Positions 1,335-26,642 of a DNA stretch of 64,000 nucleotides are shown here, piece after piece. The notes under the pieces are model-generated. The model was not told where the DNA came from. It was given only the letters and a program-made list of their open reading frames with translations, and ran no database searches. The stretch's first letter is position 1, and each line of letters opens with the position of its first letter. Made by a program: the position numbers and the translations under genes. Source of the stretch: Eremomyces bilateralis CBS 781.70 (lineage: Eukaryota; Ascomycota; Dothideomycetes; Eremomycetales; Eremomycetaceae); assembly GCF_010015585.1 (NCBI RefSeq), contig NW_022985075.1:372001-436000 (forward strand), in the 5' to 3' direction.

Positions 1335-2385
1335 TCGTCAAGCGCCTCCCCTCGAGTCCGTGCTAAAGGAGCAGCGGTATCGTGAGAGAAATCGGGGAAA
1401 GGGAAATGCGTGGGCTGGCTCCGAACAAGACATTCGTATCCAAAGGCGAAGCCGACTATTGTACCGACGGTTGGCTCTGGAGGGTCCCATAATGCCTTCG
1501 AAAAGCGGGGTTGAAGCCGGCGGTTCCAGTTAGGCCAGGAAGTGGTGATAGATCTGGAAAAGAAGGGTGTGGGAGCGGTAGGGAGGACGGCGCATTTATG
1601 TAGGAAAATGACTAGAACGAGGTGGGGTCGACGGGGGATGGGCAGCTGAGAAACGATGGCGCAGAGATAGCGCTAAGTCAGAGGCGGTTCGACGAGCCCC
1701 CTAAACCCAAAGAGGCAGCGTACCTAAAGTCCTGGACAGATTTTACGATAGTACCGTAGATACTCTCCCAGAGTGCCCATGACATTATTCCTCGGAGTCG
1801 TCGCGGTATTGCGAGGTAGTTGAAGCGGGCCCCGGACTTCGATTTGGATGGTAGCCGACGGAACCCCCATCGGTTCGAGACGAACCGATATGTCCGCTGA
1901 CTGGTTCGGAGTGTCGGACGTGGTGGAGTGGGCTTGCTCTCCATGTCCTATGGAATGGGGAATTGCAGTGGAAGCCTTGAGTTTGGAGATAGAGGCTGGG
2001 GTGGAGGTTGAGGCTGAGATTGTAGTCTTGTTGACGAAACGCCTTCGTGGCTTGGACTTTGTCGCCGCCTTTAGAATGCCACATGAGCGGGCATGCCGTT
2101 TGCCCGCGAGCGATGTCGCGAATCAGAATGCGGGGCGTTCGTCTTGGCCGAATCCGCTGTCGCTATCATTGCCGCTGCTGCTGTAACCACTCAACTCTTG
2201 CTCGCCAAAATCCTCAGTGTCGAGCCTGTCAGTAGGCGAAGAGCGACGAAACTGAATAGATCGACTGCTGCTGCCATCATCACCGACATCTTCGTTGCTC
2301 TTTCTGTCGTGGAAGACTTGAACCGACACGCTTCATTGCATCTAGGCTGGTGATGAATCGTCATGACTAGTCGACTAGTGCCGCC

Positions 2386-2887
2386 TTAATGACGGGATTC
2401 CGAAAGCTGCTCGGCTGGACCGTCTTCGACTGAAGCAGATCTCTTTCCGGGCGGTGGTGGATCAGGGGAGTTGTTTGCAGTGGATGTCCGATCTGCACAA
2501 CTGTTGAGGGGGGTATTCGGTTCAGTCATCTGGCTTGCTTGAAGCAGATCGTCCTATACCTACAATAAGCTTTTGTCCAGGGATGCTAGATTTTGGTGAC
2601 TTACCTGCGCCAGCTGTTTTGATACCATCACCTGGATTCCTACCATCTAAGCCGCTCACGGACGTTGATATAATAGGCTTCGACAGCGCACCTAGATTGC
2701 CTTTGGCTTGGTCCGTAGTCTTGGCTCGCATTGCACCCTGGTCGGGATTCTTAACTGCTGGCGTGTTGCGCTTCAACAGCTCCTGGTGCGAAGGCAGATA
2801 GTCATCCGAATCAGAACCATAATCATTGGCTTCGCTCTCCTCGAGAACGATTGGTGTCGCAGGTAGAAATTGGCCCAGGGGTCTCAT
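2386..2887 (-). CDS. Hypothetical low-complexity protein (144 aa, tentative two-exon model)
   Basis: Exon 1 is 2605-2887 and exon 2 is 2386-2537. The intron has a perfect GTAAGT donor but a weak TTCAAG acceptor. The first exon reads like a real fungal protein: an acidic patch (SDSDDYLPSHQELLKR) followed by a Lys/Gly/Ala-rich segment. The second is rich in Pro, Ser and Asn (PDPPPPGKRSASVED). No catalytic or binding motif is seen and I do not recognise the family. More coding-like frames lie on the same strand on both sides (2924-3385, with SVNEYAVDFTAKVYRMEGE; and 2123-2329, acidic and Ser-rich), so this may be the middle of a longer gene whose splicing I could not resolve. Confidence 0.35.
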
Positions 2888-5243
2888 TCATCCATGCCGG
2901 ACTGGAAAGTTACTTTTGGAGGCTTATTGTTCGTTCCCGTTATTATCTTTACCGTGCTGTTCATCCCCCGACCTCGACTCGGTCAGGGTGTTGGAGAGGT
3001 CGCAGTGTTCTCTGCCGTCGCCCCCTTTGTTTCCTCGTTTCTCAGCGGCCGTTCTGCTACGAAGTCGTACGTTACTTGAAAGCTCCCCTTCCATACGATA
3101 AACTTTAGCCGTAAAGTCGACGGCATATTCATTTACGGAAATATTTTCTGGACGAGGCTTTGATCCACGCGGCTTTCGCTCCGGCGGGTGGGTATAATAG
3201 TTGAAAGAGATTGGTGCTGGTGAAAATAGGTGCCGTTGTGGTGGGTTATCTTGGTGACATCGGTCGAGACTTCGCGTCACTGCTGTAGCTGCGAAGTGAG
3301 GGGGACCGGAGAGCATAAAATCTGAGAGGGGTGACAATAGCTGAATTACTGCTTGGCGGAATCGCTTCATAGCGGGTAGGTACATGTACCCGCGGACTGC
3401 TACGTGCAGGGAGCCCTATATCAAGGGTCCCTGGAATTTGACCTTCATGATACGGTTAAAGTTGACAGAAATCTCGTGTCTCTAGCTCATTTGTCTGACA
3501 CTGTATTATGGCATCATATTGCATCAATGCGAGCGCGGATCTTTGAACAGCTAAACACTCCCTAGCAGTTCCACTCGTGGATGTCTGGATCAGATCGAAG
3601 ACCAAGTTGCGGTGAAAGACTTGACATATTGAGTGATACCGTCTCAAACACCGGCTTCACATGACATTGAACGCAATCATAGCCTCGACAAATGGAGTGT
3701 GAGCGTTGAACTTCCATTTGAATCCGATGATGCAAATTGCGTGACACGACATACTAATTAGAACTGGGGGGTTGTCGCTGATGTATATCGGATGTTTCCA
3801 CCGGACAAGTATGTGGGTGAGAAGGGGACTTAATGACAACAGAATGAAGGATTGGACGGCATAGAATTACAAAACTGGCCTTGTATGACTGACTTCGCTG
3901 GACTGAGACTTGCTACATGTCGGGCCAGAAGAGAAATAAATCGAGTCTAACAGAGGTGACGAAAGGAGACGTGTCGTTTGGTTCAAACGGGGACAGGCGG
4001 TCAAGTAGCTGTGATCATAGCGCCAAAGACGCAGGCATGATCGCTGGGCTATGAAGAATGAGGCGGCAGGAACCATTTGGTTAAGAATAGATGGTGACGG
4101 GGGACCGTTTTCGCTTGCATGTCTAGAAGTGGACCCTTGCCGCCCTCAAGAGACAAGAATCGAGGGTGTGATGTTGAGGCTCTACCCTAAGGATGCTGCA
4201 GTCATTTCCACACTGACCGAATGTCCTACCTGAGTGAATGTAGAAAGTGAAAACTGCTGGCTCTAATTATTCCCCTGAAATGTTTGTTTCGATTGCATAA
4301 ATCGATGCCAATTTCTTCGGTTAAGAAAGCGGCCGGTGGATGGACCACAGCATGGGCGGATATCTTCGCATCCTGACGCGTAGCACCGGTAAGAGAATAG
4401 TATTCCGCTGGGAGAACGGTCAATCCAGAGAATGGAGCTGTGTGATTGACTCGGAAAAAGCACGCGGGCCCAAAACGGGTGGGAAAAGTCTAGTGGAAAT
4501 CTCCGCAGTTCTGGAAAATGTCTTACCGCCGGCCTTGGGCGTCGAACGGTCGACAGGATCTTGTGTTGGTATTCGGGACTGGCCATAGAGCGGCAAAGTT
4601 GAACTGAGCCTTTGTCACTAGTGAGACAAGTGACATCGATGCCATGCTGCTGCTTGTTAACCACGGTGCCGGGTTTGCCTATGAGCCTTGTTGCATTGGT
4701 GTGGTAGTTAATACGTCCGAACGGGCCTTGTTCAGACCGATCGACGCACCCAATGAAATCTATAACATGAATCATTTGTCTCCTAACTCCTCTTTACACC
4801 CATCCTCTTCTCCCTCTTGCAAGCAAAGTTGTGGCCGTCCGCAGTTTCAACTAGGAACGCCGCTAACATTTTCCTCGGCTCCATTACTTGAACGTCTCTC
4901 GCAGGAAGTGTCCTATTGGAGCCGCAAGGGGCAACATTTCCTCGGGGATGGTGGGCGATCGCTCGCTATCCTTGGTCCACGTCGGCGCCTCGAAACACCA
5001 CGGAACCGCCGGAGAGAATTAGCATCGGCAATATCCTCAACTGTTGCACGTCCCTGGTTGACAACGTGAGAGTGTTTCGTAATATTAAAGAGTCGCTTGT
5101 TCCCGGTCGTGGCCATCTTGGTAAGATTTCGAATCTCATGAGCAGCGCTCCCCCGGTGACGATATTGGCTCTAACTCAAGCACCAGGAACCATCCGAACA
5201 GGGTATCCCAAAGCCCCAGTTGACGCTTTGAATACCGTCGCGA
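2888..5243. other. Mostly non-coding; one coding-like minus-strand frame
   Basis: The minus-strand frame over 2924-3385 (153 codons) has protein-like composition and may belong to the tentative gene below it. Otherwise I see only short overlapping frames with no domain or conserved motif between about 3400 and 5243. Confidence 0.35.
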
Positions 5244-5251
5244 TCACGTGC
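5244..5251. promoter_or_regulatory. CACGTG (E-box-like) element
   Basis: TCACGTGC lies 147 bp upstream of the start codon at 5398. The same 8-mer, in either orientation, recurs upstream of several other genes in the window. Confidence 0.4.
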
Positions 5252-5397
5252 AGTCCATTCCTTTCGACAGAACAAGGCGCACGGGATTGTCGTGGTTTCA
5301 TGGAGCTTGGTGATCGAGCGGGGCCGCGGACGTGCCAACCAGCGAACCTACCACCTCCCCCATTGAGACTCGTATTTGGGAAATCGTGATCAAAACC

Positions 5398-6339
5398 ATG
5401 GCACCCAGGAATCCCAGCTCTTCAGACAGGATCGACGATTCCTTGTCCGACCACCAGCTCCGCCAGCGTCGACAAAACCGAAGGCTTGACATTTATCCAA
5501 GCTCTTTACCGCATGAGGCTTACTTGCGGAACCGCGAGCTAGACGATTCTGAATCACTCATCGTACATTTTGATGAGAATGATCTAGCCGGGATCGACAG
5601 ACCACCCGATCACGAACGGGAAGGCCCGCTCCTAGTGAGAACCCCCACCAGTTCGAGCACAGATCCGTCCGCACCGTCGCAAACGGACTCGTCGAACATG
5701 TCTGCAGTGCTGTCTGCTTCCGATCAAGATACCGCTCCGACTACAGACATTTGGGGGTCGGCTTCAGCTATTTCAGAGCCGGCTTCAGACGCTGAAGTCC
5801 TTTCAATCTGCCCATTTTGGTTCCTGGGCTGCTTGCGGTGCCAATTTGACAACCTCTTGCAGTGCTTCTTGCATTCACTAGTGCACTTCCGCGAGCCAGG
5901 GACATTAAATCCCAGTCCGGACACCAGACACGTCTATATGGAAAACATCGAGTGTAATCCACACACCATGCACCTCGTCCAACCCCCCAACCGAGTATCC
6001 TGCCCTTTTCGAGACTGCAACTGGACAGAAAGCAGGATTTATGGCGATGAGTCGAACAACCTCTCGGTCGAAGACGACTGGGCTCATTGGCGAGCCAGAT
6101 TGGAGCACATCGAAGCTCACTTGAGGAATGGGAACAACCTGCAGCTGAATGGCAAACCCGAGTATGATCTCGCTCACTTCCTCCACAACAACAACTTGAT
6201 CACTCGCGTCAAGTTCCGCGACTTATACGAGGACTGGAACATGACTCGATCCCCCTCGATGCAGTCTAATGTTCGAGTCCACGGTGGTGAGGCGGAAAAG
6301 AGACTCCGCCGCAGAGGGAGGGAAACCGTGCCGCAATAA
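5398..6339 (+). CDS. Hypothetical protein with two Cys/His-rich zinc-finger-like segments
   Basis: A single-exon frame of 313 codons. The frame is open further upstream, but only to a GTG, and the first ATG (MAPRNPSSSD) is taken as the start. The N-terminal 130 residues are Ser/Asp/Thr-rich and probably disordered. Two candidate metal-binding segments follow: one near residues 137-165 begins CPFWFLGCLRC and has His residues about 20 positions on, and one near 201-240 begins CPFRDCNW and ends in H..RLEHIEAH. This spacing resembles the degenerate C2H2-like modules of fungal proteins of unknown function. The C terminus is basic (KRLRRRGRE). No function is assigned; nucleic-acid binding is only a guess. 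Confidence 0.7.
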   Translation: MAPRNPSSSDRIDDSLSDHQLRQRRQNRRLDIYPSSLPHEAYLRNRELDDSESLIVHFDENDLAGIDRPPDHEREGPLLVRTPTSSSTDPSAPSQTDSSNMSAVLSASDQDTAPTTDIWGSASAISEPASDAEVLSICPFWFLGCLRCQFDNLLQCFLHSLVHFREPGTLNPSPDTRHVYMENIECNPHTMHLVQPPNRVSCPFRDCNWTESRIYGDESNNLSVEDDWAHWRARLEHIEAHLRNGNNLQLNGKPEYDLAHFLHNNNLITRVKFRDLYEDWNMTRSPSMQSNVRVHGGEAEKRLRRRGRETVPQ

Positions 6340-9300
6340 AAGAAGGCGCCGTATACCTCATCATGCTTCGAAGTATACGGCTTAGGTTGCGACCTGGATG
6401 GTACGGCATCTCGAACTTCGGAAATGTGCACTGTCGATTCAGGTCAAGTTTCGCAGACTCTTGAAAGACACATTTTGAAGGCGCCTGTTGGGCGTTTCGT
6501 CGGCGTTCCCCTTTAACCAAGACATCAACTTTCTGTTCCCATAACCGATGGTCATGGCATTTTCAAGGTCACCAGGAGATTGAAATAGAGTTCCGGATTC
6601 GGTGGGACCGAACCAAATTAGTGCCACCGGGTCGACGCGCTTTCCCCTCCCACCCTTCAGTTGTGTTCGTCTAAACCAACCTGCTGGATTTTCAGACAAA
6701 CGGACCCAACTCATCGCCAAAGAATTGGAGTCAGAATCGAACCCGTGTTTTTGTCCCCTATCACCACTAAACAGGCGATGCCTGATATCCGACGATCTTT
6801 TCGAACCTCGGCAGCCATATGAATGTTATGAGCATGGCCGCGAAATTTCCCAAGACCACCAGTATCTAGACTGAAACCGATCCAAACTTTTTCAGCGATG
6901 TCCACACCAATTCGCTCGGAAGGTCTTGCGTCCAAAAAGATCTTCTTTCTTCCGATTCCCTGCTTTCGATATATGGTGCTTTTCCCTTCTCTTCTCTGGA
7001 ATCCCTGATGCTCTTAGTAGGCAGCATGCTGCTTCCTTCCTTCCTCTGTTCGTGTGTGGTTTCATGTGGTTTGTATATTTGTAAAATAAAATTCAGACTC
7101 GATTCCGTTCACTCGTTGCGGTTATGGTGCCGTTCCCTTCTCCTCTCAAAAATCCTTGATGCTCTTAGCAGGCAGAATGCTGCTTCCTTCTCTATTCGTG
7201 TGTGTAGTTTCATATTGCTTGTATATTGTTTGTAGTAAACAAAATTCAGGTTCGATTTCGTTCACTCGTGGCGGTTCCGCACCGTTGTCGGAATCATGAA
7301 GGGACTGCGGTTCCCGGTGTCCCCCACGCTTCACCCCATCTTAAAAAAGAACATTAAGACACATTTGGCCGGTCAAGGTCCACTCGTTGAATGCTGAAAG
7401 ATATCCGGCCGCTTTGGGGAGCCGCCTTTCATATCGGTAGCATGAGGTGGTCGGTATTCCATGTTGCGGAGCATCTCGACGGGTCTCCAGAATGCATACA
7501 GTTGGAAATTTCGGAAAACGAGCTGCTCCAGGAGAGTTTAGGGTGGATGCTGTCAATATTGTGCAGCAATGTGCCGTAGGGAGTCGAGGGATCGTGTAAG
7601 AGGTAGGAAAGGGATGAGGAATGTGGAGATTGGGGTTATAACCGACAATGGGCAGAAAATGTATTGACGATATTAGAATGTATTTCGCCTTTTTGGAAGT
7701 TAGGACATCAGATTTCTCTAGTTATACCTTTCAGTATCGCCTCACCCGTAGCAAAATAATGGTGTCATCACAGGTGTGTGCAACATGAGAGAATCAAGGA
7801 TGACACCGAAAGTCTGGAATCTCCGGGTAGATCGTCGGAGGCGAAAAATATCAAACACACTGACTCGCGTCCCCTGACTGTAACCTGAAAGAAGAAAAAA
7901 TCAATAACTCTTTGCCATCACAATCAACGAACACGCCCCCACAAGCGACATATCACACTTCGTATCCTTCGAAGATATACCACTCGACGGGTGGTGGCCG
8001 CCTCTTAGGCCGCATGGATAATAGGTATAAAACGAGAATCTAAATCTTTCGATGCAACTGGCGTTTGGGCTCTAACATCTCAACTTCAATCCTTCGTCAG
8101 GCGTTCCATTCTTTTAAACAGTCTTTCTTTCTTCAGGTTGCGAGTTGCGTTTCAAATCCCCTCTTCATAAAGTCAAAGAAGAGTTCCGCGCTGGCTAGAC
8201 GAAGAAATATCGGGGATTATTGACAGAGCCATAACGAACGTGTCTTATATCTCCACGGGGCATTCAAGATGGCATCCACGCCCTTATCTCCCGGGAGACA
8301 GCTGTTTATTCTATGAATGCCTTGGGAGCTCCGCAGGTTTCGTCGCGTCTTCTCAGGAAGCAAGGTAACGGATCCAGGTCATGTGGTATTCTTGTGCCGG
8401 TGTGGACCATGTTGCTGGACATCGTTTCATTTATCACGCCCTATATTCCGCAAAGAGCATGCAGTTCTGCCATTACGTTCCCTCCGAACCCGGGCGTATC
8501 CACCGTTCCAGCCTTATTGTCTGGCGTAGATTTACCAATGAGTTACAGTCTAGGCTATGTACATGAGTAAAATAAATCTCACAACCAGCTGGAGAATTGG
8601 ATTATCAGCAAGCCAGAGCTAGTTAGGCATCACTTCGTCTCCTTCAAGCACCTTATCTGCTATTATTGCCCAATGCTCGACGTCCACGAACCCAAACACA
8701 TTTGGTGACGTGCACCAGTTCTTCACTGGTCCGCCCAGCTCAGGTCTGGTCTCATAGGTTGCTGTCCGAGAAGCACTATGCCCTCGCCCTGTTTTACCAA
8801 CCCATGCTTAACAGGTTGTCCAGTCACTATCACATCACATTTCCACAAGGGTTCTGTTCACATCAACCAACTTGTTGGCTGTGGCTTGAAATCCGAGGCG
8901 ATGCTGATTCTCCTTTTACTCTCCGTTGTTGTTTCAGCGCCCAATCATGTTGGCAAATGAAAGTGGCCAATAGTTGAAGCTGCTCTTGGTTTGACCTTGC
9001 ACCAGACGCACTAGATGCCCTGGGGCAAGGTGAGCCTTGAGTCAACCTTGACTGTATAGTCGTTTCCGCGTCTACGATATGGTTTAGTTGCAGTCTTGGG
9101 GTCCTGTGCGATACCACGATCTAAGCAGAATATCATGTCCCATAGACCTATTCTAATGTTGTACTGACGGGGAGATATTGTGCCGAGAATACTATGGCAT
9201 GGATGCCACCAACAACCTCCCTTATCACAACCAATAAATCCCACCAGCATTTAGACTTCACTGCAAGAGCTGTATCCAACCACTAAACGCCACACCAAAC

Positions 9301-9378
9301 CGAACACCCGTGGTCCCCTAACGCCAAACGCATATGCCTCGTAAGATCCACGTCGCTCCATCCTCGAACCCCCCCCTC
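6340..9378. other. 3-kb intergenic region, no gene recognised
   Basis: Apart from the tandem duplication listed separately, I see only short frames in several overlapping registers (for example three plus-strand frames over 8313-8570) without domains or consistent splice sites. A short unrecognised multi-exon gene around 8270-8980 cannot be excluded. Confidence 0.45.
6975..7278. repeat. Diverged tandem duplication, two units of about 151 bp
   Basis: Unit 1 (6975-7125) and unit 2 (7126-7278) share an order of landmarks: GATGCTCTTAG.AGGCAG, ATGCTGCTTCCTTC, TTCGTGTGTG, GTTTCAT, TTGTATATT, AAAATTCAG, TCACTCGT.GCGGTT. Many differences are C/T or A/G transitions and there are a few small indels. 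Neither unit codes for a recognisable protein. It looks like an old local duplication. Confidence 0.8.
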
Positions 9379-10236
9379 TCAACTCTTCAACGCCTCCAGT
9401 CGCCCCCTCATCTGCGCCAACATCTCCTCCTGATCCTCCTCCTCCCCCTCCTCCTCTACCGGCTCCTCCCGCACCGGCACGCTCGGCACCTCCTCTGGCG
9501 TCGCCTTCGCCGGCAACCGCCCCTTCAGCACCTCCGTCAACACCTTATCCACCTCCGTCTCTGCCTCCTCCTCCTCGAACTCGTCCTCCTCCGGCAGCGA
9601 ATCCCCTACCATCTCCTCGATGATCCCCGCCTTCACTAGCTCCTGACTGAGCTCCCGCATCGTCCCCGTCAGCTGCCCGAGGCTGATCAGCTGGTTGACG
9701 TCCTTCATGATCCCCGTCGATTTCTTGATCGACCCCTCGATCCGCCGGAGGGCGAACGCTTCGTTGACTTGCATTTGGACCGAGTGGAGCTGCGCTTTGG
9801 AGGTGGCGAGGCGCGCTTTCTGCCGGCGGATGCGCACCATTTCTTTGGCGAAGGTACGGGTTTCGCGTTGGGCTTGGGCGGCTTGAGAGGGATTGCGTTC
9901 GGCGCGTTTGGAGGATTGGAGGATGAAGGTCTTGGTTTTCGATCTAGTGTTGGTTGTGAGAAAGGTCGACTTTAAGATGGTAGCCCGAGCTGTGTGGACG
10001 TACTCGAGGAGGCCTAAGTTCTGTATGTCCCGATCTAGCTGGCGTGAATGTCAACCACTGGCGGCGCGTTTGGAAGGGTGAATGCGTACTTTCCGCGCGT
10101 TCTTCCGTACGAGGGCATCTGTCGTGTCGTAAGCAACCATAACATGTCGAGTCAGTACTCAGGACCATGACGCACTGCACTTCTGCCGCTGCTCCTCTGG
10201 AGTCGGCCCAAACACGAATGAGCGGATGGTTTGCAT
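9379..10236 (-). CDS. vps24: ESCRT-III subunit Vps24 (CHMP3-like)
   Basis: Four exons (10176-10236, 10090-10118, 10004-10038, 9379-9943) give 229 codons, the usual size for the family. The three introns (57, 51 and 60 bp) split the conserved N terminus: FGPTPEEQRQKCNALVRKNA is built from exons 1 and 2, and LDRDIQNL comes from exon 3. The last exon carries the Snf7-fold core (GSIKKSTGIMKDVNQLI, LTGTMRELSQELVKAGIIEE), an acidic linker, and a C-terminal DQEEMLAQMRGRLEAL resembling the MIT-interacting motif bound by Vps4. The family co-polymerises with Snf7 on endosomes to form multivesicular-body vesicles. The start at 10236 was chosen because it yields the basic, helix-0-like N terminus. The only oddity is a long Glu-rich stretch before the C-terminal helix. 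Confidence 0.93.
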
Positions 10237-17636: not shown

Positions 17637-19473
17637 TCAATCATGGAAGACGATTCTTGGACCCTGATAGTGCTTCCGGGCATAACAGAACCAATTCACC
17701 GTTCCAAAAAACGCTGCAATCCCTAAGATGACAACGTTGTAATCTATTCTGTTAGATAGATCTTCGTGGTGGGTGCTGCGCTGGACTTACTCATGGATTC
17801 TGCGGTGACCGGTACAAACGCCGGAAACAGGAAAAATATGCACAATATCGAAGGCATGCAAACAGCCCAGACGTTGATTATCCATCCAGCCCAGTTCGGC
17901 AAGCCGAATGCTCGGTTCCTCGGCAGGTACGTCGTGGATCTTCTCTGATACAGAACCAATGCCGTTGGCATGATGAAGGATAGCAACTGGAGTGTCACGC
18001 ATGAAGACACAAGAGCATTGAAAGCTGGATGCGAAAGTCAGCACAAATGCGGTTCCATTCGTCCCGGGAAACTCGGCTTACCAGTGTCCGATGCGAGAAT
18101 GAGCAGCCCACAGGCAGCAAGAACCCCCCAAACGACGAGGATGGACGATACCGGGACCTCGAGGGTAGGATGGATCTGACGAAACAGTCCCGAAAAGACG
18201 AGTGCATTGTCCCGCGCCAACGCCCAAGTGATTCTCGATGCAGTTTGAATCACTGCATTTAGAACGAAAAAGGTCATGATGACACCGGCAATCAGCAGGC
18301 CAACAGCTCCGGCGTCTGAGCGCAGTCCAACGCGGTTGATCTCGAAGGGCAGGTAACTAGAGACAATATGGTCAACGCATATCCGCCTTGGAGTGTGTGG
18401 CAGCCTTACCCTTCAATGGCAAGAACCTCGTCAAAATCAGATATACTATACAGTATCGCGATGCCAAAGGTGAAAGCGGTGATGAAGCCGATACCAATGG
18501 CGCTGACGCCTGCTAAGGGAACAGAAGTCCGGGGGTTGGGAGCCTCCTCAGCCATATGTAGTGCAGCATCCAGCCCAGCGAAAATAAAGGATGTCGTTAG
18601 GAGTGCAGTGAGGAAGCATACACCATCAGGCCAACCAGTACTGTTCGAGAAGGTCGTCCATACAAATGTATGTGAGGCTTTCGGCGACGAGCGAATGAAT
18701 AACCCCAGAGTCGAGATAATGAACATGATGATGGTCGTTGCAACTAAACAAAGGGGCCAGGTTAGTCTTTTAAAAGGTTGCGGGTCAGGAAAGCGCTCAC
18801 ATCCAATGTCATGGGTTCTCGGCAGCTTCTTCAGCGCCAGCACGTTGTAAAGCACGACTATGAAACCAAATGATTCATAGATCAAGAAGGCATGCCATTT
18901 CTGCAGCACAAACTCCGGGTGGTAATATGTTACTATAGCCGGGATCTGCTGGCTCGGGATAACGATGATCGCAGCGCCGATGGCTATCCATGAAAGGTTC
19001 GCGAGAATCCCACAGGTGTACGAGAGACCGCGATTGAACCGTTTCGGCGCCAGGATCGAGACGAAGTGGTACTGGCCTCCCGCAGTGGGATAGACACTGG
19101 CGAGCTCGCCCATGCTCAGGGCGATGGCCATGTAGGCACTGGCAGTGATCATCATACCGTAGAGGAGCGTTGCAGGGCCGCCTTGGATCAGTGCGATTTG
19201 AGAGCTGGCGGACAGACCAGCCCAGCTGTTGCAGATGTTGAAGCATAGAGAGATCATGGTCACGGCACCGATGCTCTTCTTCATCTGGCCCTGGCCACCA
19301 GCCATCGTCGTCTGCACAATATCCCCGGAGGCATTGCTGGTGGTTGGTCCGGCGGCGTCATTGTTCTTCTCAATTTGGCCGGATTCTGCAGGGACATTAG
19401 TGTGGGAACTTGATGCCATAGATAACGGATACTGACCCAACGAAGAAAACTCAATATGCGTGTTGGACCCCAT
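17637..19473 (-). CDS. APC-superfamily amino acid/GABA/choline-type permease
   Basis: Five exons (18801-19473, 18410-18743, 18082-18356, 17791-18024, 17637-17743) give 540 residues; the four introns are 47-57 bp. A hydrophilic N-terminal tail of about 70 residues precedes roughly twelve hydrophobic segments. The early helices resemble fungal GABA/choline permeases (SIGAVTMISLCFNICNSWAG, MGELASVYPTAGGQYHFVS), with TTSFIFAGLDAALHMAEEAP in the middle as in UGA4-type carriers. It is probably plasma-membrane uptake of an amine, amino acid or GABA-like compound; the substrate cannot be read from sequence. It is divergent from the amine oxidase at 20353, and the 879-bp spacer carries tandem GATA sites, which suggests nitrogen-regulated co-expression. 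Confidence 0.9.
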
Positions 19474-19979: not shown

Positions 19980-19990
19980 CACCGCGGCTA
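19980..19990. promoter_or_regulatory. Cluster motif copy 1, CACCGCGGCTA
   Basis: It lies in the permease/oxidase divergent spacer. The core CCGCGG is a back-to-back pair of CGG half-sites, the arrangement many Zn2Cys6 proteins bind. A TATAAAGG sequence at 19936-19943 lies just upstream on the oxidase side. Confidence 0.5.
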
Positions 19991-20058: not shown

Positions 20059-20068
20059 CACCGCGGCT
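20059..20068. promoter_or_regulatory. Cluster motif copy 2, CACCGCGGCT
   Basis: The second copy is in the same spacer and orientation, 79 bp after copy 1 and about 290 bp upstream of the oxidase ATG at 20353. Confidence 0.5.
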
Positions 20069-20352: not shown

Positions 20353-21846
20353 ATGGTTGCAGCCGCTGAATCCGTCGACGTTCTAGTGGTGGGCGCCGGT
20401 TTGTCCGGTCTCCGAGCCGCCGTCGATGTTCATCGCGCTGGACTTTCGGTCGTCGTGCTCGAAGCACGGGACCGCGTCGGCGGCAAGACACTGAGCGTCG
20501 CCGCCTCGCATCTAGGTGGGAAGGTCGACCTCGGGGCTGCCTGGATCAACGACACCAACCAGAGTGAGATGTACAAACTCGCTCGCGAATTCGGCTTCGA
20601 CCTCGTCGAACAACGCTCCTCCGGGTTCAATCTGACCAAGGGATTGGACGGAAACCTGGTTAAGTTTCCGTTTAACTCGTCGGGCCCGGCGTCACCGCAA
20701 GATGAGGCTGCCCGGGATGCCTTTTACGGAGCACTGGTGGAACACGTCTCTGTGGCGAATCATGAGAGTCCGCATTTGTGCCCGGACGCACTGAAATTGG
20801 ACTCGATGACCTTTGAAGAATTCGCCAGGGCGGAATCGAAGAGTGAGGTCGGTGTCAATGTCGCAAATAGGATGTCAGCCGCGCTTCTCGGTGTGGATGC
20901 CGAAGAAGTGAGTGCATTATTTATGGTGGATTATATCCAAAGTGGAACCGGTCTTGAAAATATGTCATCGGATCTGAAGGATGGAGGACAGTACCTGCGG
21001 AACCGACAAGGTAAGATAATATTCTCCCCCGTTTTCTTCGGATACCAAAGCTAATTCTGCGAAGGGAACCAGGCATTCTCTGCCCGCATGGCAGCCAAGC
21101 TCCCTCAGAACTCCCTCCAGACATCGACAGCTGTGTCCAAAATCACGCAGTCGGGGTACAATATCTGTGAGGTTACAACAACCTCGGGATCAACCTATTA
21201 CGCAAAAACCGTCATCGTTTCGGTGCCCACCTGCGTTCTGCCCTCTATCACATTTGATCCACCTCTACCACCGGCCCGGATGTCTCTTTCTCAGAACACA
21301 CAATTGGGCTATTACGCCAAGGCAATTTTCATCTTTGATCGTCCCTGGTGGCGTGAAGCTGGTCTGAGTGGAATCATGGAGTCCGACGAAGGCCCGATAA
21401 GCTTTTCACGAGACAGCTGTGTTGAGGCGGATGGCCAGTATAGCATCACCTGCTTTATCGTTGGCGATCCTGGAAGGCGATGGTCGAAATGGTCTGCGGC
21501 CGAGCGCCGAAGACGAGTAGCGGAACAGTTCGATGCCCACTTCGGGCAGGCCGCAAGGGATGTAGGAGTGACGGTCCCGGCGGCGGTCAACATTATTGAA
21601 AAGGAATGGATCAAAGATCCTTGGGCCTGTGGAGCGCCGTCCGCGGTGATGATGCCGGGCACCTTGACGGGAGATGCAGGCAAATCCATTCGAGAGCCGT
21701 TGAGGAATGTGCATTTCGTCGGGACGGAGACAGCACTGGTATGGAAAGGATATATGGAGGGAGCTGTTCGATCTGGCATAAGGGGAGCACAAGAAGTAAT
21801 CCAGAAGCTGTCGAGTCGGACCCTGGAAAGGGCAAAGTTGTCCTAG
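20353..21846 (+). CDS. Flavin monoamine oxidase (stand-alone)
   Basis: Two exons (20353-21010, 21065-21846) with a 54-bp intron give 479 residues. The N terminus is a Rossmann FAD site (DVLVVGAGLSGLRAA, VVVLEARDRVGGK) and the C terminus the conserved FAD/active-site segment (FVGTETALVWKGYMEGA). The Lys that contacts N5-bound water in MAOs is present (GYYAKAIFIFDRPWW), as is the second cage Tyr (KGYMEGA). At the position of the covalent-FAD Cys of human MAO (SGGCY) the sequence reads CGAP, so FAD is probably non-covalent and the first cage Tyr is missing. The predicted reaction is oxidative deamination of an amine to an imine plus H2O2; the substrate is unknown. Its neighbours are the permease (divergent) and the regulator (convergent, 34 bp). 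It ends AKLS, not a canonical PTS1. In-frame ATGs at 20155 and 20254 could add an N-terminal extension. Confidence 0.92.
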
Positions 21847-21880: not shown

Positions 21881-23606
21881 TTATAACATTGGAATCCAGA
21901 ATCCTTTCTTTTCCATTAAGTACAAACCGTATGGTCCAAATGCTTGTGCACAATCCGTCTCCCAAAGCAGCTCCAGTACGTTGCAAATTGCAAAAACATG
22001 TTTCATGCGGTATCTGGACGCCCTCAAGCTTCCAACCAACTCGCAGCGCTCCGTAATGTTGGTCATGCACGATCCAGCCATGACGAGAGGCCACAGCATA
22101 ATGGTTTGCCATCGAGATGGACCTAGGGAGTGCGAAATCTCGATTATTGCATCAATGTGCGATTGAATCGCGTGCCGAGTCTCTGGATCAGAGATTAGTG
22201 AGCCCGCAAGCGCCGCTGCAAGATAAATACGCAAGCCGTATCGAAAAGCCTCGGCAGCCAATCCTGCCTCCTCGTAGTCGGCAGGATCGTCATTTGGAAA
22301 TGGTGTTGGGAGCACCCAAGAGTCGATCCGGTTCTCTAGGCTTTCATAAATCCGCACCGAATCCAGGGATGGTGATGCAACTCGGGCTTCCTCCTCCGCC
22401 AATCGTCTAGCAGCTAGCAGCGTAACTTGAGGGATCAGCTCAAACAGTCCATGACAGTCACCGAACATGGTGCCAAATGTCGAATACGAGCTGAGATTGC
22501 TCAGACATGTGACAAAGGAATCATAATGAACGGCACACCCTGATCCAGTTCCATGAGGCTTGCAGGAGTTGGTTATCAGAATGTAAGCGTAGAGCTCTAG
22601 ACACAGGCCTAGTGAGGCAGTATTGTTGCTGGATCCAAGATGGCCATGGTTATGTAAGTGTGCCAAAAGCGGGTGGATTAGTTCCCGACTTGCACGCAGG
22701 TGTTGAAAGATTGTGCCTTTAATGTCTCCAGATATAAGCTACGCATATAATTAGGGCGATACTGAAGAATTTTCAGATGGGACCAACCTCGTAGTGGCAC
22801 AGCACTATCAAGACCAGAAGCAAGCTCAACGTCTTCTGAAAGTCGTCCGAGCCCAGGCTGCCCAATTCGGATCGCAAGCCGCGGACAACGACTGAATAAT
22901 GCTGCCATGTTGCGGTTTGGATCCGAACATCCGAATCCCTTTGGAAGGCCAGATGTGTTCCACTGAGGGCGAGCACGCTATGCATGAGCAAATCGTCCGT
23001 ATAGGCGAGCGGCACAATGTGCGTGACAAAGGGGTTCTTCTGAACTGGGGCTGTCGCCAACATCGGCCCCGTCTGAACCAAGTAATGGCTAAGCAACATG
23101 CTAGAGTCCGGGGTAAGGATGCAAGCTCGTCCAAATCCGTTAGTCAAACCTGGCGGAAGCATTGGGGGCGTATTGGTGGGTATCAGTTCGCCTCCTCCAG
23201 AAATTACATCCCTTAATGTGCTTTCGACAGGAACCTCGCGTTGCTGAAGCGGCCGGTCCGAGCAAGATGTCGACTTCTCGGGCTGGTCGTGAGATGCGCT
23301 GCCTGCTACCGGCAACGGCCACTGGCAGTTTTCATGATTCCGCCGACAACCAGCGCAACGCGGTTTCGTCTCATCGCATTTCTTCTTCCTCCGACGACAC
23401 GTAAAGCAGCCCGTCTTAACCCGGGGATAGTTTGGTCGCAGGAGCGGCCGGCTGATTAGACGCGGTGTTGAACTGGCGTGGGTAAGCCGCACGGTTTCGG
23501 TTTTGTCACGTCTGCACAGATCGACGCGTGGAGGTGGAGCGGCCGCAGGCGCGGGGTCGATGTCGAAATGAACGAAGATTGTGCTCGTATCGGAATCCTC
23601 AAGCAT
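21881..23606 (-). CDS. Zn2Cys6 transcription factor of the amine cluster
   Basis: Two exons (22788-23606, 21881-22738) around a 49-bp intron give 558 residues. The binuclear zinc cluster near residues 66-92 has Cys spacing C-x2-C-x6-C-x6-C-x2-C-x6-C (GCFTCRRRKKKCDE, then PRCAGCRRNHENCQ). The rest matches the general layout of the fungal-specific regulatory domain 2 family: a helical region starting with ILTPDSSMLLSHY, HSVLALSGTHLA, a GDIKGTIFQHLRASRELI segment across the intron, and a C-terminal region ending shortly after CNVLELLWE. It acts in the nucleus. Its position between two oxidases, with a promoter divergent from the Rid-oxidase fusion, suggests a pathway-specific regulator binding CGG-type sites (inference). 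Confidence 0.92.
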
Positions 23607-24199: not shown

Positions 24200-24210
24200 C
24201 ACCGCGGCTA
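24200..24210. promoter_or_regulatory. Cluster motif copy 3, CACCGCGGCTA
   Basis: It lies about 390 bp upstream of the fusion-gene start, in the same orientation as copies 1 and 2 relative to the downstream oxidase. Copies 1 and 3 share 11 bp. Confidence 0.5.
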
Positions 24211-24599
24211 GATATACGACCTCCCTCTAGCAGACAACTCCTCTCGACCTCCGCGCTACAAAAGGGTTTGTATTACTTCATGTTTTGTTATTGATCTGGC
24301 AGTCGTCTTGCCGCGCTACGGTCTAGTGCAACAAGTCAGTGATGCCCCCTGGGGCGTTGTTGGAAGCCCGGCCTGGACGGCCACCGCTCTCCCCTGGCGT
24401 GGAGATTTCAAAACTGGATCCTCACGGATGCTGAAATTAAGTAGGTAGGTAGGCCATGCTCTTCAGGCGCCTGTGGCCTTTACCTTTTCTTTTCTCGACC
24501 CTGCCATCTTTCTCTGCACCCCTCTGCTATCCCCGCTGCGCCTTCCCCTACGCACTTCAGTCCGAACATTACACCTAAGTCCGTATCTTGCTTTGCAAT

Positions 24600-26642
24600 A
24601 TGTCTCCTAGGATACCTCCACCAGACATCACCTTCGTCGACTCTCCCGCATTGCCGGATCCGCAGTGGTACTCCCACGCCGCCTCCATAAACGGAGCGGG
24701 CCGCCTAATCTTCACCTCCGGCCAGGTCGGCCAGCACAAAGATGGAAGCTTCCCACTCAGCTTCGGCGATCAAGTGAAGCAGGCTGTCGCCAACCTCGCC
24801 GATGTATTACGGGCGGCGGGCGCAGCGCCTCGCGACGTTGTCCAACTGCGCTTCTATTGCGTCGACTGGTCCATGGATATCGGAGGCGATCTGGTCACTC
24901 CTGTGCTCGCTCTGCTCACCGAGACCTACGGGGTAACGTATCGCCCACTCACGACTCTCGTCCCAGTTCCGAAGTTGGCGTTCCCGGAAGCCAAATTCGA
25001 GATCGAGGCCGTGGCAAGCGTGGGCGGGTTATCGCGGCCATGGGTGTTGGCAGACGGTCATCTTCCCAACGGAGCTCAAACTCTCGTTGCCAACCGATTC
25101 CCTGTGCCTGCGGCAGAGGTGGATGTTCTGGTGGTCGGGGGAGGTTTCTCGGGTCTGATGGCAGCATATGAGTGTCAGCAAGCGGGTCTAAAGACTGTCT
25201 TGCTCGAGGCTCGGCATCGCGTTGGCGGTCGAAGCTGCTCGTTGGCTCTGAAGAGTGGCCCTGGCGTCATTGAGCTGGGCGCCACCTGGATCAACCGCAC
25301 GACTCAGCCAGCCGTCTACGCTCTCACCGAGAAGTTCGGTCTGGAGACAGCCGAGCAGTACACCACGGGTCAGGAAATCTTCCAAGGATTAGACGGATGC
25401 GTAACGAAAGTTCCAGATCCCCAGTCGCGTCGAATAAGCGTATGTGAATCCTACCCATAGCCTTGTCAATTCATTCACCGTCTTGCGCAGCTAACAGTAT
25501 TCATCATAGGACTCAGACCCAGAGACCACCGAGAAAGTACAGAAGCTCTTCCATCTGATTGAAGAGGCGGCCAACCAGCAGGACATTCGAAAATGGGACA
25601 GTTTCCCAGAGCACGAAGACGTCACTGTGGCAGAATGGGTTACGCAAAAGCGACTGTACGATAATGCCACCGTTCGAGCACAATGCCAACATTTGACGAG
25701 TGCCATTGTCGGACGCGAGCCGCACGAAACCGGAGCGCAATACTTCCTGGACTATATCAAGTCCGGCTGTGGCCTCACCAGCATCATTAGCGAGGGTGAA
25801 TTCGGCGCGCAGTCCCTGAAAGTCAAAAAAGGTACGAGTAGTGAGTGAATCGGCCATGTGGAACGCTCTTACAATGACCCATAGGAACATCGTCCATCGC
25901 AATGGCTCTTGCTTCCGAAATTGGCCCTGGCAATGTCTTCGTCCATAGCCCCATCAACACCATCGTCCAGTACAGAAAAGGAGCCACCGTCACCACCACC
26001 GGCGGCCAAACGTTCACCGCGAAGAAAGTGATCCTCGCCAATCCGACCAACACCTACAGCAACATCCAGTTCTCACCCCCGCTGCCCGCCGCAAAGCGAA
26101 CCCTCGTCTCGCGCACGAAGCCCGGCGTATATGCCAAAATGGTAATTTCTTACACCTCCCCGTGGTGGCGAACCGCCGGACTGGTCGGCAAGTTCTCCTC
26201 CCTGCTGGGGCCTATCTGCTTCAGCTGGGATACTAGCAGTGTCCCCGATCAGCAATATAGCCTTGCCTTCTTCATCGCCGGCGAGCGCGCCGCCAAATGG
26301 CATGCGCTTAATGCGCTCCGTCGTGAAGAAGCGGTGATCGAGCATCTCGCGACCCTGGTTGGACCCGAGCTAGCTGATAAGGTGAGAGATGTGCTCGAGG
26401 TGAATGAGGTAGAGTGGACCAAGGAGGAGTATATTGGAGGGGCACCGACGAGCACAATTGGCCCGGGACTGCTCCGTAAGTACGGCGCGGAGTTGAGGAC
26501 ACCGTTTAGAGATTTGCATTTCGCTGGTGGGGAACTGGCATTTGAATGGAAAGGATATCTGGAAGGTGCCGTTACGTCTGGGAAGCGAGCTGCCAGTGAG
26601 GTGATTGACGTATTGAAGAGCGGCGATGGAAGTAAACTATAG
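24600..26642 (+). CDS. Rid (YjgF/YER057c/UK114) domain - flavin monoamine oxidase fusion, PTS1
   Basis: Three exons (24600-25439, 25510-25831, 25885-26642; introns 70 and 53 bp) give 639 residues. Residues 1-142 are a Rid domain (GRLIFTSGQVGQHKDG, ANLADVLRAAGAAPRDVVQL, then FEIEAVA). A linker runs to about 172, and the FAD amine oxidase follows (VDVLVVGGGFSGLMAA, LLEARHRVGGRS, ending HFAGGELAFEWKGYLEGA). The junction lies inside exon 1, so the fusion is not a splicing artefact. The MAO Lys (GVYAKMVISY) and one cage Tyr are kept; the covalent-FAD Cys position reads Ala (IGGAP). The last residues are SKL, a canonical peroxisomal signal. Canonical RidA hydrolyses reactive imines, the product class of amine oxidases, which makes the pairing logical. 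But the signature Arg is displaced (YRPLTTLV instead of PARS/T), so deaminase activity is uncertain. The start is the first ATG. Confidence 0.93.

Follow-up and report, generated by a model that had tools for sequence, protein, structure and literature searches.

The locus considered here raises two linked questions: whether a fungal gene that appears to join a Rid domain to a flavin-dependent amine oxidase encodes both as a single protein, and what an attached Rid domain might do there. The gene was examined within a window of 64,000 nucleotides from Eremomyces bilateralis CBS 781.70 (assembly GCF_010015585.1, contig NW_022985075.1, positions 372,001-436,000 of the forward strand), the term 'window' denoting that entire stretch. 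A preliminary description of this DNA had reported an uninterrupted exon that carries a Rid domain along with the beginning of the oxidase, and a protein ending in SKL, and had proposed a self-contained unit that oxidises an amine, handles the resulting imine and confines the peroxide to one compartment.

The fusion gene (window 24600-26642, plus strand) runs in three exons from the ATG at 24600 to the TAG at 26642 and encodes 639 amino acids; its parts, and those of its neighbours, are collected in Table 1. As originally described, a single stop-to-stop frame (24579-25460, plus strand) runs unbroken through the Rid domain and on into the amine oxidase, including its FAD-binding start, and both domains score above their Pfam cut-offs: PF01042 matches residues 24-140 (58.1 bits, cut-off 27.3), while PF01593 matches residues 183-628 (187.8 bits, cut-off 19.8) across profile positions 1-443, that is, over the whole profile, which confirms the earlier assignment to the amine oxidase class. 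Three in-frame donors are available for intron 2, yielding proteins of 639, 641 or 642 amino acids (with intron 1 at 25440). The GTACGA donor of the 639-residue form is a weaker consensus than GTGAGT; that form is nevertheless preferred because its intron 2 then matches, in place and phase, the intron of a neighbouring paralog (AO1), both introns lying inside a G codon when the alignment is read (KK/GTSS in the fusion and RQ/GNQA in AO1, the slash marking the intron).

The choice of donors at intron 2 lends something to the alternative that the fusion is an artefact of the gene model, and that the Rid protein and the oxidase are made separately from two genes; the single open exon across both domains speaks against it, as does the distribution of methionines (residues 1, 92, 187, 394 and 473, none of them between the Rid domain and the FAD motif). 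Since no methionine intervenes between residues 92 and 187, an oxidase started after the Rid domain would lack the FAD motif, and the two-gene alternative, deprived of a start codon between the domains, was rejected as extremely improbable. By sequence, Rid domain and oxidase are encoded as one polypeptide.

Table 1. Features of the fusion gene and its neighbourhood (window coordinates)
Feature	Position	Strand	Basis
Fusion exon 1: Rid domain (aa 24-140; 24669-25019), linker (about aa 141-173), FAD-binding start	24600..25439	+	ORF, splicing, Pfam
Codon of T118, at the RidA catalytic arginine position	24951..24953	+	three alignments
Fusion intron 1 (GTATGT...CATAG)	25440..25509	+	splice model
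Fusion exon 2, amine oxidase	25510..25831	+	splice model
Fusion intron 2, donor GTACGA preferred; alternative donors 25838, 25841	25832..25884	+	paralog intron position and phase
Fusion exon 3: remaining amine oxidase, terminal SKL, stop TAG	25885..26642	+	splice model, Pfam
AO1, second amine oxidase, 479 aa, intron 21011-21064, C-terminus ...ERAKLS	20353..21846	+	Pfam, splice model
Zn2Cys6 / Fungal_trans_2 regulator, divergent from fusion; ends approximate, start by eye	21884..23606	-	Pfam
AA_permease_2 amino-acid permease; divergent from AO1; start codon placed by eye; model traced down to 18409, with further exons possible below	18409..19473	-	Pfam
CACCGCGGCT copy 1, upstream of AO1	19980..19989	+	motif scan
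CACCGCGGCT copy 2, upstream of AO1	20059..20068	+	motif scan
CACCGCGGCT copy 3, 391 bases upstream of fusion ATG	24200..24209	+	motif scan

Among solved structures, the oxidase half is closest to cyclohexylamine oxidase (6lqc, E 2.2e-56, 194.8 bits), a further amine oxidase (8i6i), 8p84, putrescine oxidase and MAO-B, and it shares the full-length PF01593 fold with cyclohexylamine oxidase (6lqc/4i58), putrescine oxidase, MAO-B and 8p84. Its FAD dinucleotide motif (VVGGGFSGL...EARHRVGGRS) is intact by eye. Residue A574 (in YIGGAPTS) faces the cysteine of the bacterial monoamine oxidase 8p84 (RGCYGA), which we take to be the flavin-linking cysteine position of MAO-A and MAO-B; the fusion, lacking that cysteine, resembles cyclohexylamine oxidase, which likewise reads GGAP where 8p84 has GCYG, and Lys472 of the fusion is a lysine in 6lqc and 8p84 as well. 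Because alanine replaces the cysteine, the FAD of the fusion is probably not covalently bound. The best explanation of these resemblances is that the oxidase half is an FAD-dependent primary-amine oxidase of the monoamine oxidase and cyclohexylamine oxidase kind, the activity itself being a prediction. The matched oxidase chains (431-534 amino acids) align from their own N-terminus and so carry no Rid domain there, to which the fusion adds both Rid and SKL. A fungal amine oxidase, Aspergillus niger MAO-N (2vvm, 3zdn), matched far more weakly, with at most 88.3 bits as against 194.8 for 6lqc; it presumably has a peroxisomal-type C-terminus and no Rid domain.

The C-terminus of the fusion reads SGDGSKL directly before the stop, so that the SKL of the preliminary description is indeed an ending of PTS1 type (SKL or a conserved variant). 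Only two of the 1308 six-frame stop-to-stop frames of at least 30 amino acids in the window end in SKL, the fusion gene being counted in, and about 0.03% would be expected from residue frequencies; on these figures a chance SKL is unlikely. Targeting of the fusion to peroxisomes through this tripeptide is thus predicted.

The role originally given to the Rid half, hydrolysis of the imine in the manner of RidA, lacks support in that form. According to extracts of PMC4433059, RidA depends on an arginine, Arg105 in TdcF, by which the ligand's carboxylate is contacted, and this residue is kept in Rid1-3 and not in Rid4-7. In the Rid5/Rid6-like group, as defined in the same extracts, the arginine position is variable while the glutamate and a tyrosine or phenylalanine are kept; Rid proteins without the arginine are predicted not to hydrolyse amino-acid imines, a criterion repeated in extracts of PMC5619798, and the sole tested case, Rid7 of S. 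enterica, did not hydrolyse leucine imine (PMC4433059, extracts). In three alignments of the fusion the position of TdcF Arg105 is occupied by T118, while Y24 and E134 are retained, a combination (variable arginine position, Glu and Tyr/Phe kept) that fits the Rid5/Rid6-like proteins. With RidA (YjgF/TdcF/UK114) the domain has in common the Rid fold and the Tyr and Glu positions; it differs in having T118 for the catalytic arginine and in falling far under the cut-off of the RidA-subfamily model TIGR00004 (29.4 bits against 106.25), a threshold that a RidA encoded on C17 of the same genome, taken as a control, also just misses (103.5 bits).

An alignment of 23 rows, in which the fusion stands with 22 prokaryotic Rid sequences (every match that phmmer gave for the Rid half in the examined loci, less the window's own copies), has a residue other than arginine in that column in 21 rows including the fusion, arginine in one (a cyanobacterial Rid) and a gap in one; the rows were picked by likeness to the fusion and do not estimate the frequency of arginine loss. 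The Tyr24 column of this alignment holds tyrosine in 21 of 23 rows and phenylalanine in two, and the Glu134 column glutamate in 22 of 23 with one gap. By eye, all six plasmid relatives examined also lack the arginine. Identity to the bacterial relatives reaches about 43% among the matches listed. A profile made from the fusion Rid domain and nine bacterial relatives found its best PDB match in 5v4f (128.3 bits, with 57.8 for TdcF and 59.8 for YjgF), which is YyfB, a protein of unknown function according to its entry. These arginine-less relatives are standalone and bacterial, whereas the present copy is fungal and fused.

Structure prediction is consistent with the Rid fold that had been proposed for residues 1-142. 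An AlphaFold model of residues 1-150, of low confidence (pLDDT 63.8, pTM 0.61, from four sequences), retrieved only Rid-family structures among its best 50 Foldseek rows (assigned to the family by title or by PDB molecule name), with TM-scores of 0.44-0.62 of the query; a model of the whole fusion reached a pLDDT of 35.9. On these alignments and models, the first domain is a Rid domain by fold that lacks the signature of RidA activity, and it groups with the arginine-less, Rid5/Rid6-like proteins and not with the RidA type. Its occurrence in a fungus is noteworthy because Rid1-7 are said, in extracts of PMC5619798, to be exclusively prokaryotic; the tests described in those extracts covered Rid1-3 only, and extracts of PMC7221256 give a classification of Rid proteins without function.

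The replacement of the catalytic arginine by T118 and the low TIGR00004 score, set beside that of the C17 RidA, favour an alternative in which the Rid domain is non-catalytic and stabilises or regulates the oxidase, either as a scaffold for trimer formation or as an allosteric module that senses a ligand, within an otherwise ordinary peroxisomal amine oxidase. The same alternative draws on the typically trimeric state of Rid proteins, on the existence of tandem three-domain RidA proteins and on the inactivity of the S. enterica protein (PMC4433059, extracts). Against it stands the retention of Tyr24 and Glu134 in nearly all sampled relatives, which suggests a retained pocket, together with the fact that the arginine-less protein tested was assayed on an amino-acid imine; since it is the ligand's carboxylate that the arginine touches in TdcF (PMC4433059, extracts), hydrolysis would still be possible for imines that carry no carboxylate. 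A scaffold or sensor is the main rival to such hydrolysis, and is regarded as a real possibility at somewhat less than even odds.

The genome offers its own points of comparison, with PF01593 matching 12 stretches and PF01042 five. A phmmer search with the oxidase half, which covered the oxidase loci at C17:450-454 kb, C17:520 kb, C4, C20 and C28 as well as the window (a set from which the C17:174 kb and C1:109 kb hits of PF01593 are absent), recovered the fusion itself, AO1 and, weakly, C4 (28.3 bits). Two standalone RidA proteins are encoded, and both keep the arginine (PARTALQV on C17, PARSCVAV on C16); the Rid match on C4 lies within a 902-residue frame that, we assume, resembles Dph6. A separate observation concerns locus L014, which is the region of C17 at about 517.2-521.8 kb. 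It contains a standalone RidA with catalytic arginine (5165-5647, minus strand), whose start MKLISIFATCLAVAGTACA looks by eye like a signal peptide, divergent from and about 2.1 kb apart from a secreted-looking oxidase (7728-9752, plus strand); the solved structures nearest to this oxidase are those of L-lysine oxidase and other L-amino acid oxidases. This oxidase is probably an L-amino acid oxidase, the imines of which would carry a carboxylate, and the two genes possibly form an exported oxidase/deaminase pair. The genome thus holds an arginine-bearing RidA whose divergent neighbour is a probable L-amino acid oxidase on the one hand, and an arginine-less Rid domain fused to a monoamine-type oxidase on the other.

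That Rid proteins associate with amine oxidases has been known from bacteria. In extracts of Niehaus et al. 2015 (PMC4433059), Rid genes of bacteria are described as clustered with genes for FAD amine oxidases, the Rid protein being RidA or sometimes Rid3 and bearing the arginine; the same two kinds of protein are therefore paired as in the fusion, but as separate genes and with the arginine present (PARTAVQV in the pair described next, against T118). That unfused bacterial counterpart (L201, Roseiarcus phylum) consists of a PF01593 amine oxidase gene at 1735-3354 and, about 24 bases on, a Rid gene at 3379-3876 whose product has a signal-like N-terminus.

The fusion itself was not seen among prokaryotes in the plasmid, contig and two-phylum samples, among the matches listed. 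Of 72,556 plasmid records 142 matched the fusion, and none of the 142 has 80% of the query covered (40 matches being listed); a first scan of a genome contig collection confirmed no fusion, and a second found nine loci, all matching from residue 155 or later, and again no fusion. In the phylum of Saccharopolyspora, 298 of 396 genomes matched (the best three candidates per genome being scored), with no match over both domains among the matches listed; the earliest of these starts at residue 124, contains an internal stop and lies on a fragment (L042, from G131) in which phmmer found no Rid frame. A junction query at E 1e-8 matched 47 of 398 genomes in the phylum of Roseiarcus (best eight candidates scored). 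The sole match extending well into the Rid half among the matches listed (G588) was discarded as a fusion, having an internal stop and proving to be a DAO-family flavoprotein; a Rid gene lies elsewhere on that fragment, beside another DAO-family gene. None of the open-access papers listed by literature searches describes a Rid-amine oxidase fusion, as judged by title, opening of the abstract or extracts; domain databases may list the architecture.

The neighbourhoods of the bacterial relatives were also surveyed. None of 18 bacterial Rid loci had an oxidase homolog in the flanking stretch examined (phmmer, E 1e-3), and among five close Rid relatives on plasmids with annotated surroundings none had a gene annotated as a flavin monoamine oxidase in its neighbourhood; in two of the five a different FAD oxidoreductase lies some 5 to 6 kb from the Rid gene. 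The best E-value, among the best 50 of 119 records, belonged to the Rid protein of Shinella sp. HZN7, presumably a nicotine degrader; its gene does not lie beside an oxidase, and the idea that the closest bacterial Rid genes belong to nicotine or amine operons was dropped. Four close relatives on plasmids of Shinella, Roseateles and Sinorhizobium (L072, L073, L074 and L077) have, by eye, a hydrophobic signal-like N-terminus, and their genes adjoin YafY- or TetR-type regulators; these are possibly exported arginine-less Rid proteins. Two scans of viral contigs confirmed no relatives of the fusion Rid domain, pattern scans of the same contigs yielded three Rid sequences, and a contig of the viral collection (L131, 3611-4231) encodes a Rid protein with TSTTVQI at the arginine position, apparently without the arginine.

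The surroundings of the gene indicate that 'self-contained unit' was too strong a term. The same locus holds a second oxidase (AO1: PF01593 213.3 bits, no Rid domain, no PTS1), a Zn2Cys6 regulator between the two oxidases and a permease on the far side of AO1, and an apparently common promoter motif. AO1 is 37% identical to the oxidase half of the fusion by MAFFT, or 39% over 448 aligned positions when a 469-residue splice variant of AO1 is used.

The 10-base motif CACCGCGGCT occurs three times in the window, in each case upstream of one of the two oxidases (two copies for AO1 and one for the fusion); shuffled windows contained 0.16 copies on average, and none of 100 reached three. Throughout the genome there are 45 copies in 26.6 Mb, fewer than for a reversed control pattern (108). 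The Poisson probability of three copies in 4.2 kb, about 6e-8, is post hoc because the motif was picked by eye before testing. Looser forms were not enriched, whether ACCGCGGCTA with one mismatch (5 against 3.0 expected) or the core CCGCGG (23 against 22.9 expected). The likeliest reading of the clustering is that both oxidases are under common control, perhaps exerted by the Zn2Cys6 regulator. Nitrogen-type GATA control was considered and set aside, HGATAR giving five sites in the gap between permease and AO1 (p about 0.06 by simple shuffles) and one in the gap between regulator and fusion.

A compact locus with permease, regulator, two oxidases and a common motif would also suit a biosynthetic or salvage role, in which the Rid domain binds an imine or enamine or hands it over (for example for cyclisation or coupling) without hydrolysis. 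Pfam was run on 20 frames between about 5.3 and 48.7 kb of the window (frames under 170 amino acids being mostly left out), of which 14 match a family and six none; no polyketide, peptide-synthetase or terpene core enzyme is among the 14, and several are housekeeping proteins, namely PDS5, TTI1, mRNA capping enzyme and Ku. With this gene content a biosynthetic or salvage role appears improbable.

The reading preferred here, to which we would give a probability of roughly 0.4, is that the gene encodes a peroxisomal amine oxidase, inducible and equipped with a Rid domain that speeds the hydrolysis of a carboxylate-free imine; in broader terms, the protein is most likely an inducible peroxisomal amine oxidase with a Rid domain that acts on, or scaffolds the handling of, such an imine. 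In the proposed sequence of events: (i) the fusion and AO1, perhaps joined by the permease, would be expressed together as an inducible set of genes for amine utilisation; (ii) an amine would be taken up and oxidised in the peroxisome, giving an imine and H2O2, with peroxisomal catalase removing the latter; (iii) the Rid domain, which probably assembles into the trimer usual for Rid proteins and so brings three oxidase units together, would meet the imine as it leaves the oxidase; and (iv) the Rid domain, with Tyr24 and Glu134, would speed hydrolysis of that imine to an aldehyde or ketone and ammonia. The arginine, it is proposed, would be absent because an amine-derived imine has no carboxylate. 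A related prediction, and no more than a prediction, exists for a Rid6 protein of a bacterial nicotine cluster: in extracts of PMC7688666 the authors expect that protein to take an enamine derived from an amine as its substrate.

This preferred reading gains from the pattern of residues, in which T118 has replaced the arginine and yet Y24 and E134 are kept while the pair of standalone RidA proteins in the same genome retains the arginine, and from the bacterial clustering of Rid and FAD amine oxidase genes, including the unfused pair of L201. Several observations weigh against it: the published criterion that Rid proteins without the arginine have no deaminase activity (PMC4433059 and PMC5619798, extracts); the arginine carried by the oxidase-clustered bacterial Rid proteins (RidA/Rid3 and L201); the 18 bacterial loci and five plasmid neighbourhoods without an amine oxidase beside the Rid gene; the ability of AO1 to manage without a Rid domain; and the low confidence of the Rid model, together with a motif that was noticed before testing and unenriched in its looser forms. 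The more specific claim, that the fused Rid domain is a working imine hydrolase with a new specificity, directed at imines lacking a carboxylate, so that the missing arginine would signal an altered substrate with function retained, is put forward as rather unlikely on present evidence.

As far as the searches reach, what is new is the covalent form of the association, with a peroxisomal tag and a Rid domain of the arginine-less type. Rid proteins of that type are widespread in bacteria, and extracts of PMC4433059 describe their function as completely unknown in 2015. The covalent fusion names a partner, and the imine should therefore be the product of the attached oxidase. If the domain does hydrolyse that imine, the arginine-less Rid subfamilies would acquire their first substrate class, delivered to them by an oxidase on the same chain.
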